Shown here: positions 2,074 to 16,898 of the stretch, one piece after another
Layout of the letters: the number at the start of each line of letters is the position of its first letter
How positions within the stretch are numbered: position 1 is the first letter of the stretch
Virus record (IMG/VR): IMGVR_UViG_3300043399_001053
Coordinates: 1-30,971 of that record
Source: a virus
Length of the DNA: 30,971 bases
Direction: 5' to 3' (one strand)
Notes under the pieces: generated by a model
What the model saw: the letters and a program-made list of their open reading frames with translations, nothing else
Told to the model about the DNA's origin: nothing
Databases searched by the model: none
Made by a program: the position numbers and the translations under genes

Positions 2074-2435
2074 CACGCACCTCGCACTTTCATAAATGAC
2101 AAATAGACCCGGCTTTCCAATTGCTTTGGCGGGCGGCATACGTAGGGACGGCTACGCTCCAGGAAAACATAACCGCTGGAGATCAACGCCTGCATCACTT
2201 GTCCTGCTTGGGTCTCAACGTCCTCAGTTTTTGCCCACACCCGCACGCGCAAAACTTCCGAAGCCGGTTCAGCAGGCACATTGGAGGTGTCATTCCACGC
2301 TCCCTGGCTGCTATCCCAGATTATTCCAACTGCTTCAAGTGCTGCATACATATCATCCTGCTTGGGAGTGGGTGGGATATTCTTTTTCAGCGCTACATTT
2401 ATCGCCGCAGAATATTTTTTCGTCATCTTAGCCAT
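2073..2435 (-). CDS. Hypothetical phage protein
   Basis: 120 residues from ATG 2435, with a GTG at 2438 as alternative. GAGGTG lies just upstream and the start overlaps the preceding stop as TGATG. The sequence is soluble and mixed alpha/beta. An N-terminal helical part (KKYSAAINVALKKN, QDDMYAALEAVGIIWD) precedes a likely beta part (EVLRVRVWAKTEDVE, ISSGYVFLERSRPYVC). I do not recognise a family. It sits between the J-domain gene and the small membrane gene in the coupled run, and ends in Arg-Gly-Ala-stop for the same coupling reason as its neighbours. Confidence 0.65.
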   Translation of the reverse strand: MAKMTKKYSAAINVALKKNIPPTPKQDDMYAALEAVGIIWDSSQGAWNDTSNVPAEPASEVLRVRVWAKTEDVETQAGQVMQALISSGYVFLERSRPYVCRPPKQLESRVYLSFMKVRGA

Positions 2436-3025
2436 CACACACCTCGCTTTCCCGTAGCCAGGTCATAAGCTTTCTGCACCTGGTCAAACATCACAGCATC
2501 ACCACCGGCATCCGGATGATGCAATCTCGCAAGCTTGAAATACGCCTGCTTGATCTCATCAGTGCTTGCTGAAGGATCCACACCCAGCACCTCCCACCAC
2601 TTGCGCGTCTCCGGATCTGGCAACGCCATGTAACCAGCAAATGCCTGGTCGAGCGATCCCACGCCCCAGCGTTCCTGTCCGCGCAGCGCCTCGAGATGCT
2701 TCACGATTGCCCACAGATTGTCCTCAACCGTTTTGTACTTATCACAGGCAAAAACGATCGGTTTCTTTTTCCAATCGAAGTAAACCGCCACACCAGGATC
2801 ATCCGGCATACGTTGGTTGCTGTATGGAATGCCATCATTCCGCACCCGCAGATTCGTAGAAATGATCATGCTCGATCCGCGCATCAATCGGATCTCATTC
2901 TCAAGGATCCGTGCGCTGCTGATGATGCTGTGCTTCCCGAACTGCGAGCTCTTACGGTCAAAATATTTGGTTCTTCCCCAGCCAACAGGCCATGAAAGGG
3001 GATAATTGGTAATTTCATCGTTCAT
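2435..3025 (-). CDS. Phage J-domain (DnaJ-like) protein
   Basis: 196 residues from ATG 3025 (MNDEITNYPLSWPVGWGRTK), chosen because GGAG lies six bases upstream; TTG 3037 and ATG 3031 are in frame but badly spaced. The protein has an N-terminal domain of about 125 residues known from phage and plasmid J proteins, with YPLSWPVGW, STNLRVRNDGIPYSNQ, DDPGVAVYF and DNLWAIVKHLEALR. A C-terminal J domain follows: WWEVLGVDPSASTDEIKQAY then LARLHHPDAGG with the invariant HPD. J domains stimulate Hsp70 ATPase, and no phage DnaK is seen, so host Hsp70 is the probable partner. Known phage J proteins help replication initiation or morphogenesis; which applies here is unknown. It follows the parM/parR-like pair. 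Confidence 0.88.
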   Translation of the reverse strand: MNDEITNYPLSWPVGWGRTKYFDRKSSQFGKHSIISSARILENEIRLMRGSSMIISTNLRVRNDGIPYSNQRMPDDPGVAVYFDWKKKPIVFACDKYKTVEDNLWAIVKHLEALRGQERWGVGSLDQAFAGYMALPDPETRKWWEVLGVDPSASTDEIKQAYFKLARLHHPDAGGDAVMFDQVQKAYDLATGKRGV

Positions 3026-3035
3026 ATTCATCTCC

Positions 3036-3050
3036 AATTATTGACGGTTA
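3036..3050. repeat. 15-bp repeat copy 1 downstream of parR-like gene
   Basis: The sequence AATTATTGACGGTTA (TAACCGTCAATAATT on the minus strand) fills the short gap between the parR-like stop and the J-domain gene. An identical 15-mer lies at 4433-4447 upstream of parM. The two copies bracket the parM/parR pair in the same orientation. Candidate binding site for the ParR-like protein or another regulator. Confidence 0.6.
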
Positions 3051-3350
3051 CTATTCATCATCATCCACGACAAAGGCGCCCACGATCTGAGCAGCCGCTT
3101 CACGAGCCTTATCCATGTCGCTATCCTCAACCGCCTGCTGCATCACCGGTCCCAGCTCACCGTTCAACGCCGCGGTCACCAGATCCCAAACAAATGCAAA
3201 TCGTTTCTTGTTCGGAATCGCATCCAGCCAGGCGAACGTCTTATCATCCCTGGCATTTACACCGCGCTTTCGCAATCCTTCAATGCGTATCCGCTCACTG
3301 GGAATTGCGTCGTGCGGTCTGCCTCTTTTTGGTAAAAGTTGATCGCTCAT
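3051..3350 (-). CDS. Putative ParR-like partner of the ParM-like actin
   Basis: 99 residues from ATG 3350, overlapping the parM stop by four bases (ATGA); the frame extension to 3374 lies inside parM and is dropped. The N-terminus is basic (LPKRGRPHDAIPSERIRIEGLRKRG) and could bind DNA. The middle is helical (NKKRFAFVWDLVTAALNGELG) and the tail acidic (AFVVDDDE). Known ParM operons encode a small DNA-binding ParR directly after parM; ParR binds parC repeats and caps the ParM filament through a C-terminal segment. Size, position, basic start and acidic end fit, but there is no recognisable ParR signature, so the call is mainly by context. Confidence 0.55.
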   Translation of the reverse strand: MSDQLLPKRGRPHDAIPSERIRIEGLRKRGVNARDDKTFAWLDAIPNKKRFAFVWDLVTAALNGELGPVMQQAVEDSDMDKAREAAAQIVGAFVVDDDE

Positions 3351-4378
3351 TTTTCCATCACGCTCAACTTCCACAGTCCGCGGGCAATCGATAGCACAGG
3401 CAGGTTCGGCACATACGCCTTCATCCCAAATTGCGCAGTCAAGGCATCCTTCAACAGCAACGCACCGCCGCCTACGATGATCACCTTCACAAAGCGCTTG
3501 AAGCTCTGTCCCCAGCGACGCTCGATCTCACCGTTCACTTCACGCGCCCAGATCGGCAACGCCTGCTTCATCTCTTCGCGCATCCGCCCGGCTCGCACCT
3601 TCTCATCCAACTCGCCCAGGCTCCAATAACCATCACGGTTCAGCAGCTCCAACAAGCGGCGAACTCCGAGCGTATTGCCAGCCGTAAACCGTTCCACCGC
3701 GCCACGGTCCTTCACCACCAGCAATTCAACTGTGTTGAATCCAACGCTGATCACACCCACTTCATCAAGCATCGCATCAGATCGATCCGCCAAAATGCGA
3801 CCAGTATCATCAAGCACGAAATCGAACAAAGCGCCCACCGGCTGGCTCGTCAATTTCACCTGTCCAACCTCAACGGTCATCGCCTCACCATCCGCCGTGA
3901 ATTGGTGCGTTCCCTTCAGCCAGTTCTTCACCCCAGCTTGGTACGTCTTCGCATCCGCGCCCATCATCATCTGCAGTGGCAAACCAACCATCAGCGAGAG
4001 CGGTCGGTCGAACTTGCCATACGTGCGCTGGAACTGCGCCAGGCTGCCATACAACAACGCCCGCATTTCAGGTGCGCCGGTCAGTCGTTCAAAGTCCAGG
4101 TTCTCAACCGGTCTGCCATGTTCATGTGCGCCTTCACCAACATAGAACGAACCATAGTCCGAGGCGATCTCCATCGGGCGGCGCTTCGCCTTCAAACCCA
4201 ACATGCCTTCATAATGACCACGTCCATTTGCAGATACCTGGCTCACCACCTGCAAGCCTCCGCCTGCGATCTTGTTTACTTCACCCTTCTTCACACCTGG
4301 CACATTCCAACCGCCGCAATACATCTTGTTCGCGCCCATGCCCAGGTCTTCGCCGATGAAAATAAAGTCGTTGTTCAT
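3347..4378 (-). CDS. parM: ParM/Alp-like actin-family segregation ATPase
   Basis: 343 residues from ATG 4378 with AGGAG six bases upstream. Actin-fold nucleotide motifs are in order: phosphate-1 GEDLGMGANK at residues 9-18; a PLSLMVGLPL strand near 126-135, as in ParM/Alp proteins; phosphate-2 VISVGFNTVELLVV near 209-222; and the adenosine motif IIVGGGALLL near 300-309. The C-terminus is PNLPVLSIARGLWKL. The family forms dynamic ATP-driven filaments that push plasmid or phage DNA copies apart, or in some jumbo phages position DNA. The next gene overlaps by four bases and is ParR-sized. An AT-rich 74-base leader with a repeat lies upstream. This points to stable extrachromosomal inheritance. 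An archaeal-type or MamK-like role is less likely. Confidence 0.85.
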   Translation of the reverse strand: MNNDFIFIGEDLGMGANKMYCGGWNVPGVKKGEVNKIAGGGLQVVSQVSANGRGHYEGMLGLKAKRRPMEIASDYGSFYVGEGAHEHGRPVENLDFERLTGAPEMRALLYGSLAQFQRTYGKFDRPLSLMVGLPLQMMMGADAKTYQAGVKNWLKGTHQFTADGEAMTVEVGQVKLTSQPVGALFDFVLDDTGRILADRSDAMLDEVGVISVGFNTVELLVVKDRGAVERFTAGNTLGVRRLLELLNRDGYWSLGELDEKVRAGRMREEMKQALPIWAREVNGEIERRWGQSFKRFVKVIIVGGGALLLKDALTAQFGMKAYVPNLPVLSIARGLWKLSVMEK

Positions 4379-5535: not shown

Positions 5536-5873
5536 AGTCATCACCTTTTTTAATGAACCAAATGAACGAAGATGAACTTGCCCCAGCCAAAAAACGTGCC
5601 TGTCTCTTTTATCCATAGCAAATAAAAGCCGTAAGTAATATCTAAGTTCATTAAAGTTCATCAGGTTCATTAATTTGTATAACAATGTTCGCGTAATCAT
5701 CATCAAATGAAGCAAATGAACCTCGATGAACTGAATTTTGGGGGCGGCTGATGCATTTGTTTTGTTCAAAATTGCAGAAACCACGCCCAAAAGCCAGAAA
5801 ATCAATCCAAATTTGCCTACAAAACAAATTGATTCACCATGGCGCAAAATACGTTCATTCAAGTTCATCAGGT
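5536..5873. repeat. Non-coding region with four blocks of ATGAAC iterons
   Basis: This 338-base gap next to the primase gene holds twelve ATGAAC-type hexamers in four three-copy blocks, the last running into the primase stop (to 5877). Block A, plus strand: 5553, 5562, 5572. Block B, minus strand: 5646-5651, 5656-5661, 5665-5670. Block C, plus: 5707 (ATGAAG), 5716, 5726. Block D, minus: 5853-5858, 5863-5868, 5872-5877. Within every block, read in its own direction, the hexamers are separated by exactly 3 and then 4 bases, about one helical turn apart. Blocks A/B and C/D form two inverted pairs. This is the design of a replication origin iteron cluster or a partition centromere. Part of the frame is open but a coding origin would not explain copies in both orientations. 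Confidence 0.8.
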
Positions 5874-8800
5874 TCATTCCTCATCCTCCGGATCGAACAT
5901 AGTGCCCTGTTCAGCCTGCCCTGTGGGTTGTATGTTCCCTACAATGGGAGAATCATCCCGCATGGCAGCCCGCAGCTCGTCTGTAAGCCCATAGCGCAGC
6001 TTCGCCACTTCCAATTTGTCCTCATCAAAGATGATCACGTAGCCCTTGCCCACCCGGTGAGCTGGCAGCATCAACGTATCCTGGCAAATATCCGAGGTGG
6101 TCTTGGTCGTCAGGCTTTTGCCACGGCGTTTTTTCTTATCATCCTCGTCCGCGCCTTCCTCTTCTTCGCCGAGATTCATTTCATCCATCTTGATATTGGC
6201 GACCACCGCAATATCTCGTGTGAAGGCATATAAAGCATTGCCCCATCCATTGACCGTTCCACGGTGTAGATACTTTTCATATTTTGGATCTTCTTGAATG
6301 GCGATAACCGCATCCAAAACGCGTGCATCCAATCCCTGGGATCGCTTCAAAATGCTATGGTGATAAAGCATCCTTGCGAATGTCTCAATATCCTTCAACA
6401 TTTCAGGATCATCTTTCGCAATATGCTTGAGCGGTCTCATCACCTCGTTATGGCGGGTGCTGATTGTGAAGTCAGTCATGCTTTCATCAATTTGGAATTC
6501 ATCTGCTTGCCATTTTTCTAAGCGCCAGCGTAGTAACTTATTCACGACTGATTGCCGCTCTGTATAGAATTTTGGAGGCAGTTCTTGTGGTATCCCCTTT
6601 TTCTTAAGTTCAAGAGGACTATGTTGGCTCATTTCAAAGGTAACGAATCGGTTCTCGGTCGCATCGTCCTTAAATCGACCGTACATCGTCACAATCTTGG
6701 GACCATATACAAACGCCATTTCACCGCGTTGCCTGCGTGTTCCATCCTGCATCAGAACTTCCACCATCTTCCAAACTTTGCCGGTCTTTTTCTTGTATCC
6801 CACGTTCAGCAGCACGCCGCGATCGTCGAATTTGTCGCTGATGTCCATTTCATCCATGAACAGGGTCCCGCGGAACGTATCGATTGCATCCTTATATGAG
6901 GCAGTGGTACTGATACCTGTGGAGATGATCAGCCGATAGCATAAATATCCGATCCGCAGCATGACCTCGGTCTTGCCTGTATCTGTGCCGCCGCGTGCTC
7001 GCATGTAGGGGATCGCCGGAAAACAGTCATATAGGTAGGTCAACATCACGTAATAAGCCGCGAGCTTGTAGTGCAGCGGGTTATCGAAAAGCACGTACCG
7101 CCTCAAAAACAATTCGATCTCTGCCGCCAATTGACGTTCCTTCACCAACTCCCCCAATCCAGTGGGGAACATCACTGCCCCTTCGATGATCACTGAATCA
7201 GGTTCGCGTGGCACATATCGTATGCCGTTGATGTCGATATATTTCGCTGTCCCAAACCGACCTTCGGGGTTGCGGTATGCGAACATCGACTCATTCTTCG
7301 ATGGGTCATAGATGTATTCCAGCAGCCACCCTTTGCCATCTTCGGTTCTGATCCACCCGCCAAAGGTTTCGAGGATCTCGTTCGTCTTTCCATCTTCATC
7401 CTCCACCTTTTCTTTGCGAGCAGTAGCCAGCAGGTTTTTGAATTCACGAATCCCGATCTGCAAAGCATCAGAAAATGCAGTCCTCAGTTGTTCCACCACC
7501 AGGCGATCCTCGATCCGTGCAATAACCTCGATGACCCGCTTTGTGGATGTGATCTTCTCTGCGCTGCCAAAGCCCATCTTGCCTGTGGCGCTTGCCATCT
7601 TCATTACGATCGGTCGCGCCTCATTCAACGCCTTGCGGAATTCTTCCTTTTCCTTGACATCTTCCACGTTGGTGTCTTTAGCCCACTGCCTCAGATCATT
7701 CGCATCTTTTACAACTTTTTCTCTGCCATCTGGTCGTGACCATTTCTTTTCGGGCCAGTCGATGATCCTCGCCATGCCACCAACGGTGTCAGCGATCGGG
7801 TAATCATTTTCCTTGCCTGTGATGGCTTCCTTGCCTACGCCGTCACGGTCATATGCCAGATACATTGTCTGATGTTGCTGTGCCAGGCGTGACAATTCTT
7901 TTTGTGTGTGTTGGTTTGACCAACCCACACCCGCAGTTGCCACCGCCGAATAGCCATGAATGCCAGCCGTGACCGCATCCATTTGACCTTCGACGATAAG
8001 CAACTCAGTTGCCTTGTTGTAATAAACATGGTTGTAATAAAGTTCTTTTTTGCCGCCAACCAGTTCATTGGGCAGGTTGTAGCTTTTACGTTCTTCAGCT
8101 TCGCCGCCTTCATTCACCACCTCATCGAAGGGAGGGATATTTCGACGGCTGAAATATTGCACCGCCCCGCCATGTATGTGAGGGAAGATAATGCCTGGCA
8201 CGCCTAGCATCGATGGAATGCGTCCATTGGTTACCCAGCGCCCTTTGGGTTGGATGCCATTTGCATTGCACCAACCAGTGACCGCCTCTGCACCCTTGAA
8301 TGTTTTCCATTCCTTCAGCCCAAGTAGCGCAACAGATGCAGGCGCATCGAGCGGAACACCGCCCGCCGCCAATGCCGCCGCCATCTCCTCATAAAATCGA
8401 GCAGCAGCAGTCCGATCCAGTCCACGATCCCCGCCTCTTCCACTGAAGCCCAGACCTGCACCACGATGGATGATCTTCTTACGACCAAGCTCATCTTCCT
8501 CGCCATAAGTCACCAGCCTGATCACGTTTTCATCAATTCCGCGATCCTTCATATAGGTCATGGCTTGATCATCTGCCAACAGCCATTTTTGGAAGATCTC
8601 TTGGGCAATATCAAAGGCATTCATTTGCACACGGAATGCCAGGCGTTTTTCAGGGTCCCGTTCTTGCGGTTCCCATTCAGGCATCCCGGCTTTTTTTGCC
8701 AGGGTCGCCAAAGCTCCCATGAAATCTGTGCGGTCGCGCGTCTCAACCCAGAAGATCACATCGTTGTATCTTCCGCCGCCATAATCGCCATTTCCATTCC

Positions 8801-8981
8801 AGGCAAAACGCTGACGATCCAGATCTACGACCAATCCGTGTTCGCCTGCACCACGTTTGGCGCCACGCGTCCATCCACGTCCGCTGTGGCGTTCCAATGC
8901 CACCGTCTCTTCGATGACATCCTCGATCCTCACCCTGCGCTTCAGTTCTGATACGTATTCTTCAATGCTTGTGTATGCCAT
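5874..8981 (-). CDS. Primase-helicase: Toprim domain fused to P-loop ATPase
   Basis: 1035 residues from ATG 8981. Residues 1-100 resemble the CHC2 primase N-terminal domain in spacing (VRIEDVIEETVALERHSGRG, then DVIFWVETRDRTDFMGALATLAKKAG) but the zinc-binding cysteines are absent. A linker leads to a Toprim domain with LLIVEGQMDAVTAG (catalytic Glu 331) and YLAYDRDGVG (DxD at 378-380). The C-terminal half is an ATPase with Walker A GGTDTGKTE at 664-672 and Walker B GTLFMDEMD near 705-713, matching helicase-type domains of phage and plasmid replication proteins. It probably makes primers and unwinds DNA for phage replication. The acidic/basic linker EEEEGADEDDKKKRRGKS lies near 950. It neighbours the iteron array on its 3-prime side and the inverted-repeat/G4 region on its 5-prime side. 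Confidence 0.88.
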   Translation of the reverse strand: MAYTSIEEYVSELKRRVRIEDVIEETVALERHSGRGWTRGAKRGAGEHGLVVDLDRQRFAWNGNGDYGGGRYNDVIFWVETRDRTDFMGALATLAKKAGMPEWEPQERDPEKRLAFRVQMNAFDIAQEIFQKWLLADDQAMTYMKDRGIDENVIRLVTYGEEDELGRKKIIHRGAGLGFSGRGGDRGLDRTAAARFYEEMAAALAAGGVPLDAPASVALLGLKEWKTFKGAEAVTGWCNANGIQPKGRWVTNGRIPSMLGVPGIIFPHIHGGAVQYFSRRNIPPFDEVVNEGGEAEERKSYNLPNELVGGKKELYYNHVYYNKATELLIVEGQMDAVTAGIHGYSAVATAGVGWSNQHTQKELSRLAQQHQTMYLAYDRDGVGKEAITGKENDYPIADTVGGMARIIDWPEKKWSRPDGREKVVKDANDLRQWAKDTNVEDVKEKEEFRKALNEARPIVMKMASATGKMGFGSAEKITSTKRVIEVIARIEDRLVVEQLRTAFSDALQIGIREFKNLLATARKEKVEDEDGKTNEILETFGGWIRTEDGKGWLLEYIYDPSKNESMFAYRNPEGRFGTAKYIDINGIRYVPREPDSVIIEGAVMFPTGLGELVKERQLAAEIELFLRRYVLFDNPLHYKLAAYYVMLTYLYDCFPAIPYMRARGGTDTGKTEVMLRIGYLCYRLIISTGISTTASYKDAIDTFRGTLFMDEMDISDKFDDRGVLLNVGYKKKTGKVWKMVEVLMQDGTRRQRGEMAFVYGPKIVTMYGRFKDDATENRFVTFEMSQHSPLELKKKGIPQELPPKFYTERQSVVNKLLRWRLEKWQADEFQIDESMTDFTISTRHNEVMRPLKHIAKDDPEMLKDIETFARMLYHHSILKRSQGLDARVLDAVIAIQEDPKYEKYLHRGTVNGWGNALYAFTRDIAVVANIKMDEMNLGEEEEGADEDDKKKRRGKSLTTKTTSDICQDTLMLPAHRVGKGYVIIFDEDKLEVAKLRYGLTDELRAAMRDDSPIVGNIQPTGQAEQGTMFDPEDEE

Positions 8982-11087: not shown

Positions 11088-12068
11088 TCATGCCATCGCT
11101 TCCACCACCGCGCGGATCTGCGTCCGGCTGGCGCGTAAGTAGTTCTTTTGAGTTGTCCGAAAATCACGGTGTCGCATCTGCCTGCGAGTGGCATCAGCCG
11201 CCGCGTATTGAGAGCCGGTCTGTTGCAATGCCATCCCATAAAACTGGCAGCCCATCGAAGCCCGCAGATCGTGGCAGGTCACATCCACTTTTGCCTTCTC
11301 GCCGATCAACTTCAACCGTCTGCGTAACTGACCGCCAGTAACCCGCTTGCCATCCCAATTCACAAACAAAGGCGTTCCCCCATCATCTTCCACTGGCTTG
11401 GGCATTCGCTCGATCCACTGCGATATCAACGTCGCCATATCCTCTGCCATCTCGATCTTCTGATCAGAACCACCCTTGCCGCGTACACGGATCTGCAGGC
11501 GGGCGAAATTCACATCATCCACGTTCAGCCCCTCGATCTCCGAGATGCGCAGCCCGTGGGGGATACCCATCAGTCGAAATGCGATCTGATCCCGTTCGCC
11601 CAAGGTGACGTGTTTCTCGGTCTGCCGCCTCAAATGGGACATTGAGCCTGCCACCGATTCGAGAGCCTGGTATTCATCTGGGGTCTTGTCGCGTGGTTCA
11701 TATTCCGTGACCTTGCGCTCAACACATAAGGTCACATCACCAATGCCCAGCCACTGACTCATCAGCTTCACCGTTGCTAAACGACGGTTGAATGTCGCAG
11801 GTGCAACCCTGTTCATGTCCATCCATTCAAAATAAGACTTGACCAATGCTTCATTCAAAATGCCAGGCGAAAAGCTCTCCCCGTATGCCTGTTCATAAAA
11901 ACGATCCAGATGCCGTGCATCCTGCAAATAGGCATCGATGGAATTAACGCTCAGCGTTCCGCGCTTGCCAAACTTGCGATGATCACTATGCAGCCACGAA
12001 CCGAAAGTCTCAACCCAATGCATGGCAGGCGCAATTTGTAATGTTGCGAGATTAATTTGCTGTAGCAT
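11088..12068 (-). CDS. Tyrosine recombinase (Xer/integrase family)
   Basis: 326 residues from ATG 12068, with GGAGG seven bases upstream; longer frames to 12149 lie in the upstream gene. An N-terminal SAM-like core-binding domain (SVNSIDAYLQDARHLDRFYEQ, NRRLATVKLMSQWL) precedes a catalytic domain with the full set: Arg 174 in HGLRISEIEGLNVDDV, Lys 198 in RGKGG, His 266 and Arg 269 in CHDLRASMG, His 300 in RHRDFRTTQKNY and nucleophile Tyr 310. It should therefore be active. It lies in the leftward lytic/early operon rather than next to the repressor. A second integrase-type recombinase is present on the other strand, so dimer resolution, as with Cre, is as plausible as integration. Candidate sites: 9109-9145 and 12986-13044. 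Confidence 0.9.
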   Translation of the reverse strand: MLQQINLATLQIAPAMHWVETFGSWLHSDHRKFGKRGTLSVNSIDAYLQDARHLDRFYEQAYGESFSPGILNEALVKSYFEWMDMNRVAPATFNRRLATVKLMSQWLGIGDVTLCVERKVTEYEPRDKTPDEYQALESVAGSMSHLRRQTEKHVTLGERDQIAFRLMGIPHGLRISEIEGLNVDDVNFARLQIRVRGKGGSDQKIEMAEDMATLISQWIERMPKPVEDDGGTPLFVNWDGKRVTGGQLRRRLKLIGEKAKVDVTCHDLRASMGCQFYGMALQQTGSQYAAADATRRQMRHRDFRTTQKNYLRASRTQIRAVVEAMA

Positions 12069-12447
12069 CACCCGCCTCCGATTTCCCATGAACTGGGCAG
12101 TTAACGCCATCGCAATGAACCGGATCAGTCCCTGTGCATATAGGCTCAAGCAACTTGGATATTTGTTCGTAGATCTTCGAGTAATTTGCCCAGGTATTGA
12201 GTACCGAACAGTTGTAATAAGCTTCCTGTGTAGCCGGATCGATCCCCAGTTCGGCGTTCTTCTCAGCGATCCACTCTTTGGTCTGTCTGCCCCACGTGGT
12301 AGGGCGGTAGCCCGTTTCCCCGTACATAACGTAAATCACTTCATAGGTCCTGCCATCGAAGCTGCTCAATAATCCGCAGATCACATAGTCTGGCATTCGT
12401 GGCGCTTCACGGATCGATGTAATAATATTGGTTGATTGGTTTGTCAT
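12052..12447 (-). CDS. Conserved phage hypothetical protein
   Basis: 131 residues from ATG 12447, with TAGGAG six bases upstream. N-terminal part is beta-rich (PDYVICGLLSSFDGRTYEVIYVMYGETGYRPTTWG) followed by helices (KEWIAEKNAELGIDPATQEAYYNCSVLNTW, SKIYEQISKLL). A C-terminal Cys/His cluster (CTGTDPVHCDGVNCPVHG) could bind one metal ion. The gene overlaps the recombinase start by 17 bases, implying coupled translation, so it might be an accessory factor. I recognise no named family. Confidence 0.7.
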   Translation of the reverse strand: MTNQSTNIITSIREAPRMPDYVICGLLSSFDGRTYEVIYVMYGETGYRPTTWGRQTKEWIAEKNAELGIDPATQEAYYNCSVLNTWANYSKIYEQISKLLEPICTGTDPVHCDGVNCPVHGKSEAGDATAN

Positions 12448-15245: not shown

Positions 15246-16898
15246 ATGTCCGACCTTCGCCTCGAACCGCCTCCCTCCACACTTCCCCCAGGCTCCACCG
15301 TCTGGGCGTACCTGCGCGATTCAGGCGGACCCACCCAGGATCGATCCGTTGAACAACAACGCCACATCATCGAAGAATACTGCACCAAATGGGGGCTTGT
15401 CCTCATCCAACCGCCCTTCGAAGACGTCCACAAATCAGGCACCACGGTCAACAAACGCAATGAATTTGAATACATGATGTCCCTCAGCGCATCCAAAGCG
15501 CTGCGCCCCAAGGGATTACTGATCTGGAATCACGCCCGCTTCAGCCGCGGCGGTCCCTACGATGCCCAATTCTATAAATCCACGCTTCGAAGCCGTGGCA
15601 TCATCATTCATTCCCTCACCGACAAAATACCTGAAGGAAAATTCGCTCCCGTCATCGAGACTCTCATCGATACCTCGAACCAACAAAAAGCTGAAGAGGC
15701 AAGCATGGGTGCCTGGCGCGGTCTGCGTCATCTCGTCAAACAAGGTGCCGTGCCTGGCACACCGCCCAAGGGCATCAAGCGCAATCCGATCACCGTCGTA
15801 TCAGAACAAGGTGTAGAGCACACCGCCCACCGCTGGGACCCAGATCCACGCTACGAACACCGCATCCTCAAAGCCTTCATGATGAAAGCCGAGGGCAAAT
15901 CCCTGGCACAGATCCACCGCGCCACCCATCTCTATAGCCGCCAAAGCGGGTACACCTCCTTCTTTCAAAACGTTATCTATATCGGCATCCTGAAGTTTGG
16001 CGATCTCGTCGTTGAAGATTACTGCAAGCCCATCGTGCCCCGCGACACCTGGGATAAAGTCCAAGCCATCATTGCCGCCTACGCCAAACGCTCCAGCACG
16101 AAAAGCGACCTGTATCATCCCCGCCGCGTCAACGCCACCTACGCACTCTCCGGCATAATCAAATGTGCCCGCTGTGGGGGAGCCATGAACGGTCTCACCT
16201 CACGTCAGAAATCCGGCTCCGACTATCGCCGCTATCGTTGCAACAATTCCAAACAGGCAATGGAATGCACCGCCAAACCCATCCCCGCAGCCTTGGCAGA
16301 AAAACTCGTCATCAAAAGAATCGAAGGCTTCTTAAGGGATGAAAATAACCTGGTGAATCTCTTTACCCAATTCGCATCTAACCAGGCAGACTACAATGCC
16401 ACAGCGGATAAAGCCATCGCCTCCCATCGTGCCGAGCTTGCCACCGTCCGAAAAGCCTTGTCCAACACTGCCAATGCCATCGCCGAACTGGGCGGCTCCG
16501 CCACCCTTCTCAAAAAGCTAAAGAACCTCGAAGCCCAAGACGCCGAGCTCACCGCCAAGATCCTCGAGCTTGAAAGCCAAAAGACCGAACCCATCAAAAT
16601 CCCAACTCACGCTGAAGCACGTGGTGCAGCAGAGCGCATCATCGCCAATCTACACTCCAACGACCCCGTCCACGTCCGTCAAACCCTTCTCAGCCTCGTC
16701 TACCAGATCCTCGCCGATCGCCACGGCAGGCAGCTGGTCATGAAAGTAGATCTCTACTTTGATAAAAAAAAAGAACTGACGTATAATAGCCCTACTGTGC
16801 TTACATTACATGCCCCTGTGGGGGCACCTATCTATAGACACAGTCTGCAAATCGAATATCTGATCCAAAATCCAGGCAATCCTCTACCCGTAAAATAA
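15246..16898 (+). CDS. Large serine recombinase (probable phage integrase)
   Basis: 550 residues from ATG 15246. The N-terminal resolvase domain has TVWAYLRDSGG with Arg 24 and presumed nucleophile Ser 26, RSVEQQRHIIEEYC, and the arginine motif WNHARFSRGG near 95-103. The recombinase domain follows (GLRHLVKQGAVPGTPPKG at 159-176, VIYIGILKFGD near 243-253). A zinc beta-ribbon has Cys 307, 310, 332 and 341. A coiled-coil motif lies at about 390-455 (LKKLKNLEAQDAELTAKILE). Large serine recombinases integrate phage DNA at attP/attB with short cores and need a directionality factor to excise. It ends the lysogeny cassette. The nucleophile region has an insertion of Gly-Gly after Ser compared with typical members, but looks intact. 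Confidence 0.93.
   Translation: MSDLRLEPPPSTLPPGSTVWAYLRDSGGPTQDRSVEQQRHIIEEYCTKWGLVLIQPPFEDVHKSGTTVNKRNEFEYMMSLSASKALRPKGLLIWNHARFSRGGPYDAQFYKSTLRSRGIIIHSLTDKIPEGKFAPVIETLIDTSNQQKAEEASMGAWRGLRHLVKQGAVPGTPPKGIKRNPITVVSEQGVEHTAHRWDPDPRYEHRILKAFMMKAEGKSLAQIHRATHLYSRQSGYTSFFQNVIYIGILKFGDLVVEDYCKPIVPRDTWDKVQAIIAAYAKRSSTKSDLYHPRRVNATYALSGIIKCARCGGAMNGLTSRQKSGSDYRRYRCNNSKQAMECTAKPIPAALAEKLVIKRIEGFLRDENNLVNLFTQFASNQADYNATADKAIASHRAELATVRKALSNTANAIAELGGSATLLKKLKNLEAQDAELTAKILELESQKTEPIKIPTHAEARGAAERIIANLHSNDPVHVRQTLLSLVYQILADRHGRQLVMKVDLYFDKKKELTYNSPTVLTLHAPVGAPIYRHSLQIEYLIQNPGNPLPVK

Follow-up and report, generated by a model that had tools for sequence, protein, structure and literature searches.

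In satellite phage P4, primase, helicase and origin binding are combined in one protein, alpha, which works with ori/crr and short iterons, and among eukaryotic viruses the origins of SV40 and the papillomaviruses carry site arrays smaller than the one described here. P4 alpha also differs from the protein studied here in its primase and gene layout. P4 is mentioned as a system alongside the PICIs, in which the stretch 3' of rep serves as the origin, two iteron sets lie around an AT-rich region, and the function of the pri-rep-ori arrangement is supported by plasmid tests (PMC6092414). In the SaPI Rep and Cch2 helicases, for which hexamers and dodecamers are reported, the C-terminal domain binds iterons just downstream of the helicase's own gene (PMC7581432). 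SV40 T antigen and papillomavirus E1, with an N-terminal origin-binding domain, resemble the present system as SF3-type helicases that recognise their own origin and load themselves (PMC7581432).

The window, that is, the whole stretch of DNA analysed here (30,971 nt, positions 1 to 30,971 of IMG/VR record IMGVR_UViG_3300043399_001053), is a virus record of 31 kb that includes genes for the capsid, a prohead protease and the tail. Its positions 5553-5877 very probably serve a temperate Chloroflexota phage as replication origin, one that would be recognised by a self-loading primase-helicase encoded next to it. The features concerned are as follows.

5553..5577, plus strand: block 4, three ATGAAC iterons, where the second unit ends (pattern search)
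5578..5645, no strand: unit 2 spacer, candidate melting region, GC 0.38 against 0.50 for the window
5613..5622, minus strand: TTTGCTATGG, a weak TTTG(C/T)CTTGT counterpart, lying 23 bp past the last of the three block 3 iterons
5646..5670, minus strand: block 3, three ATGAAC iterons, where the second unit starts (pattern search)
5707..5731, plus strand: block 2, ATGAAG, ATGAAC and ATGAAC, inverted relative to block 1 (pattern search)
5732..5852, no strand: unit 1 spacer, candidate melting region, GC 0.40 against 0.50 for the window
5755..5765, plus strand: second inverted-repeat arm, ATTTGTTTTGT on this strand, ahead of block 2
5819..5829, minus strand: ATTTGTTTTGT element, inverted-repeat arm, whose TTTGTTTTGT core lies 24 bp past the last of the three block 1 iterons
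5853..5877, minus strand: block 1, a triplet of ATGAAC iterons in steps of 9/10 bp that overlaps the primase stop (pattern search)
5874..8981, minus strand: primase-helicase, 1035 aa, Zn-ribbon/TOPRIM DnaG-type primase with a predicted MCM/SF3-like AAA+ helicase (profiles, fold)
6006..6119, minus strand: predicted C-terminal winged helix, residues 955-992 (recognition helix and wing), the proposed iteron reader
6048..6050, minus strand: codon of Gly978 at the wing tip, the best predictor of iteron base 1

When the window was searched with the pattern ATGAAC-N3-ATGAAC-N4-ATGAAC, exact matches were found at 5553-5577 (+), 5646-5670 (-) and 5853-5877 (-), together with one at 5707-5731 (+) carrying a single mismatch (ATGAAG), and no further match at up to three mismatches was present in the 31 kb beyond these four blocks. 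Shuffled windows gave a mean of 0.04 matches, and none of 100 shuffles reached four. The search bears out two claims of an earlier note on this DNA, namely that the spacing is three and then four bases in each block's own orientation and that the strands of the four blocks alternate. The same note placed the array between the primase-helicase stop and the lipoprotein/parM genes, which has to be corrected, as the array ends on the primase stop itself: block 5853-5877 overlaps the stop codon (5874-5876) as ATGA. Read in the direction of the primase gene, block 1 lies on the stop codon and the blocks follow in the order + - + -, forming two tandem units, each an inverted pair of three-hexamer blocks around a low-GC spacer, and the four-block array has the appearance of one unit doubled. 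Between blocks 1 and 2 there is also an 11-nt inverted repeat, ATTTGTTTTGT/ACAAAACAAAT (5755-5765 and 5819-5829), which the earlier note did not contain. Searches of the array region for promoters, terminators and Rfam families gave no match.

Sequence profiles detect TOPRIM and Zn-ribbon domains in the N-terminal half of the primase-helicase and almost nothing in the helicase half. There is no DUF927, D5/Primase_Cterm or VapE match among the Pfam families listed for 42 members, no convincing relative of the helicase in the PDB by sequence, and only one weak helicase match in the 50,697 phage records searched. An AF2 model of residues 545-1035, built on 42 sequences (mean pLDDT 87), predicts an AAA+ helicase followed by a C-terminal winged helix, in which residues 977/978 lie at the tip of the wing. 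Foldseek matches of the helicase model include the NrS-1 helicase region, AAV Rep40, SV40 T antigen and the SaPI5 primase-helicase 7ola (E 5e-4), and the best match of a second structure aligner is MCM 3f8t (Z 16.6, 244 residues, 4.1 A), a relationship that is weak by sequence. As modelled, the helicase fold belongs to the MCM/SF3 clade.

Like the PICI/SaPI pri-rep-ori systems (PMC6092414; PMC7581432), the locus has its putative origin directly 3' of a primase/helicase gene, fused in some of them. It also shares with them two iteron sets around an AT-rich stretch, here present twice (spacer GC 0.40 and 0.38 versus 0.50), and a helicase with a C-terminal DNA-binding domain, here the putative role of a predicted winged helix whose wing is tracked by the hexamer. 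In contrast to their AEP primase, the primase of the window is of the TOPRIM, Zn-ribbon DnaG type. The helicase, unlike theirs, has no Pfam DUF927/D5/VapE match and only a fold similarity to SaPI5 7ola, and the array has its triple hexamers, at 9/10 spacing, in four blocks that make up two units. Moreover, PICI satellites lack capsid genes of their own and depend on a helper, whereas the window encodes capsid, prohead protease and tail proteins. By analogy, the system may work like a PICI/SaPI pri-rep-ori replicon, and it is not classed as one because of its TOPRIM primase, its lack of a DUF927/D5/VapE match and its own virion genes. SCCmec Cch2 is similar in having a helicase C-terminal domain and a direct-repeat site downstream of its own gene (PMC7581432), a site of the kind that the window's helicase would bind. 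However, only three AAGTG iterons are reported for Cch2, which is of a different helicase family and has a separate polymerase-type primase (PMC7581432). The Cch2 and SaPI precedents are weakened by this difference in helicase family from the window. The earlier note knew of no described site of this kind, which is partly right: the position and the two-iteron-set plan are shared with PICI/SaPI origins, and the double unit of triple hexamers was not found in the literature searched. What is known is an origin plan of the PICI/SaPI kind, and what is new is the doubled triple-hexamer units, the other primase and helicase family, and the occurrence in full-size phages, which thus appear to have a PICI/SaPI-like origin layout with a different primase and helicase type.

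Across more than 40 related loci from phages and MAGs, the array is linked to the primase-helicase gene, and not to parM/parR, from both directions of search. A DNA-first scan of IMG/VR with the bare triple-hexamer pattern gave 11 loci; in nine of them a primase-helicase homologue (32-82% identity to the 1035-aa protein) is present beside the array, which sits at the 3' end of that gene. A reversed control word of equal composition gave five matches, none with a primase-helicase gene; one of these (L144) passed the inverted-triple detector, so that lone detector matches can be due to chance. The protein-first search required an alignment query, as a search with the single protein gave no primase relatives, and returned 43 loci from viruses and 48 from genomes; among the latter, MAGs of Anaerolineaceae, Chloroflexi and Anaerolineae are the closest. 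In the protein-first loci, the array recurs at the stop of the gene with other hexamers. Inverted triple arrays of any hexamer were then sought in 42 close loci (545 kb), and 26 of the 29 found lie within -350/+400 bp of the stop, a zone that makes up less than 6% of the bases; among 37 distant homologues from several bacterial phyla and one archaeon, the same zone holds 13 of 14 arrays. The distant members that were read have a single unit, for example in elements of planctomycetes, acidobacteria and proteobacteria (GGGGAC x3 / GTCCCC x3) and in Patescibacteria (GTGAAC), while an unclassified bacterium (L080) has a partial block, and the first block is often written into the helicase gene's own end. 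Absence of the array from close relatives that keep the flanking genes, which the earlier note had regarded as evidence against it, was checked, and gene-keeping close relatives keep the array; in L050, L051, L056 and L057, the arrays beside the gene are incomplete or not recognisable. The inverted-triple detector found no such array for a Thermus plasmid homologue (L107). In L048/L053, the array lies 1.27 kb past the primase stop, behind what appears by eye to be an inserted DNA methyltransferase gene, and is otherwise intact.

Blind scans with other words recovered this helicase in two of 12 loci for GTGAAC triples and in none of 22 for GGGGAC triples. In several of the matches without the helicase, other large ORFs carry inverted arrays at their 3' end, and in L109, L122/L131 and L120 these ORFs are phage primase-helicase fusions with NrS-1 HBD, PriCT_2 and Prim-Pol/VapE in Pfam. 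The pattern is therefore not specific to the family of the window, and its occurrence beside other primase-helicase fusions supports a general design; the layout may be general to primase-helicase replicons. In L006, L009 and L011 (L042-L044), primase and helicase are two overlapping genes, giving the pri-rep-ori order seen in SaPIs.

The hexamer itself varies among the phages, with ATGAAC, GTGAAC, ATGAGG, ATGAAG, ATGCAC, ATGTAC, GTGTAC, GTGAAT, GTGTAT and, less surely, ATGTAG. Copies inside one array mostly agree, several arrays mixing two close variants, and the hexamer mostly changes in all copies together, as expected for sites with one protein reader. In one subclade (L036, L034, L037 and L040), the third, inner hexamer of the primase-side blocks is GTTAAC and the other two differ. 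The alternating strands of blocks 1-3 and the steps of 8-11 bp are constant, and block 4 is in the + direction in four related phages (L025, L026, L027 and L054). The TTTGTTTTGT element lies 24-26 bp after block 1 in many phages and 18-30 bp in others, and some have a degenerate copy or none. Roughly half of the loci tested have TTTG(C/T)CTTGT-like elements that follow block 3 at 22-24 bp. Spacer GC is 0.34-0.50, compared with 0.49-0.62 for whole loci. The distances between blocks 2 and 3 (32, 41/42, 53, 61, 64, 65, 73, 84, 93 and 102 bp) have a period of 10.3 bp over all loci and of 10.2 bp for distinct values (p 0.0026 for the distinct values, with the best period of 9.5-11.5 searched in the null as well). 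Those between blocks 3 and 4 have a period of 10.3 bp (p 0.014), and periodicity between blocks 1 and 2 is weak. The hexamers of a block had been proposed to lie on one face of the helix, which holds and extends to the distances between blocks, with their 10.3 bp period; such phasing suggests that protein at different blocks makes contact along a single side of the DNA.

Residue 978 is the most informative of 462 helicase alignment columns for hexamer base 1 (0.70 of 0.87 bits). It is G, A, S or T in 24 of 24 phages with A at base 1 and N, K or R in nine of ten with G, a rule correct in 33 of 34 phages with residue classes chosen after seeing the data; the one in-sample exception, L030, belongs to a subclade with mixed A/G at base 1. 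When the winged helix is left out of the tree, seven or more changes of base 1 are needed, and the 978 class goes along with base 1 in six of six independent pairs in 138 of 200 pairings and in five of five plus one tie in the rest (sign test over pairings, median p 0.03, the classes being post hoc). Outside the training set, six further elements fit the rule: N is found in L116, a locus identified by the word GTGAAC, and R in L065 and L089 (GTGAAC) as well as in L074, L082 and L080, which were read by eye. No other hexamer position has a partner column as clean as 978, and mutual information gives no clean partner column for positions 4-6. These data are good, not final, evidence that the winged helix contacts base 1, and the alignment and the model together indicate that it is probably the hexamer reader.

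Taken together, the site architecture, the gene link, the concerted hexamer change, the wing-tip coupling and the helical phasing support the reading of 5553-5877 as an origin. It is unlikely that an origin-linked array is read by another phage or host protein and that the helicase is recruited secondarily: although we infer the binding of the primase-helicase, and hexamer positions 4-6 have no clear partner residue, no other gene of the window follows the array across the relatives compared, and the wing-tip column is the top match in the helicase.

The other option in the earlier note was a parC centromere, to which the ParR-like protein would bind and which ParM would move. Type II par systems use repeat arrays, and both an actin-like ParM (3347-4378) and a small ParR-like ORF (3051-3374) are encoded in the window. 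Of the note's two options, the origin is strongly supported, nine of 11 pattern loci having the primase-helicase, and the centromere is not, ParM/ParR being present in one only. Within the DNA examined per locus, ParM/ParR were not found in eight of the nine array-bearing primase loci, the sole exception, L010, having them at a distance of 3 kb from the array. In the window, the array and parM have a 1.1 kb lipoprotein gene between them, no repeats hinting at a separate parC were found near parM, and the array sequence changes with the primase winged helix. The loci with the array and without parM largely refute a centromere, which we consider very improbable.

Initiator proteins often autoregulate, and the array is inside an operon, as an operator array regulating transcription of the replication operon would be. 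Such an operator is very improbable, as the array is at the 3' end of a gene, has no promoter-like or terminator-like match, and keeps its position in distant homologues with different downstream genes.

That the repeats are conserved merely as codons of a small array-spanning protein is extremely unlikely. In its favour, 16 of the 32 arrays have one forward frame that stays fully open for 320 nt beyond the primase stop, where shuffling the spacers and leaving the iterons in place predicts 0.4, and the window's first iteron shares bases with the primase stop as an ATGA start with GGAGG ahead. Against it, differences are flat across codon positions (window/L059 11/17/19 versus 16/11/96 in the primase control), frames and peptides differ among relatives, indels break the frame, and half of the arrays have no open frame. 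Translation of the stretch, which the earlier note had set against its own reading, was thus checked, and the coding explanation was rejected on the flat codon-position differences and the lack of a common frame or peptide; one idea is that the open frame reflects selection for translation through the origin, not for a product.

For 5553-5877 as an origin, the following steps are proposed by analogy, including binding, oligomer number, melting, initiation and priming. The C-terminal winged helix of the primase-helicase would bind the hexamers, and the protein would assemble along a single face of the DNA, where one unit offers six sites and the whole array twelve, numbers compatible with one or two hexamers. 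It would then melt the low-GC spacer, load itself and prime synthesis, the element near block 1/3 being a candidate melting or priming site. GC skew, suggested earlier as a check of the origin, has no switch at the array and follows the coding strand, and it is for this reason uninformative.

With this reading, a repeat block becomes an identified origin for an uncultivated phage lineage, and more than 30 matched pairs of origin word and putative reader domain form a natural series on origin choice by self-loading helicases. A wider proposal, on whose truth we are evenly divided, is that in phages and integrated elements of many phyla several different primase-helicase fusions share one helix-phased inverted-triplet design at the 3' end of their gene, with a 6-bp word that is free to change. 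The word would be set by a winged-helix code (a small residue at 978 for A and Asn, Lys or Arg for G at base 1), and phages would be able to take on a new origin identity when all iterons and one wing change together.

Elsewhere in the window, a tyrosine integrase (11088-12149) and a large serine recombinase (15246-16898) are both present, and a DnaJ-domain protein (2435-3037, PHROG 9210) is encoded directly downstream of the ParR-like ORF. ParM has 53% identity to a hypothetical protein of Virus Rctr41k (KX853513.1, 1146-2093), a virus that also has a weak helicase match.
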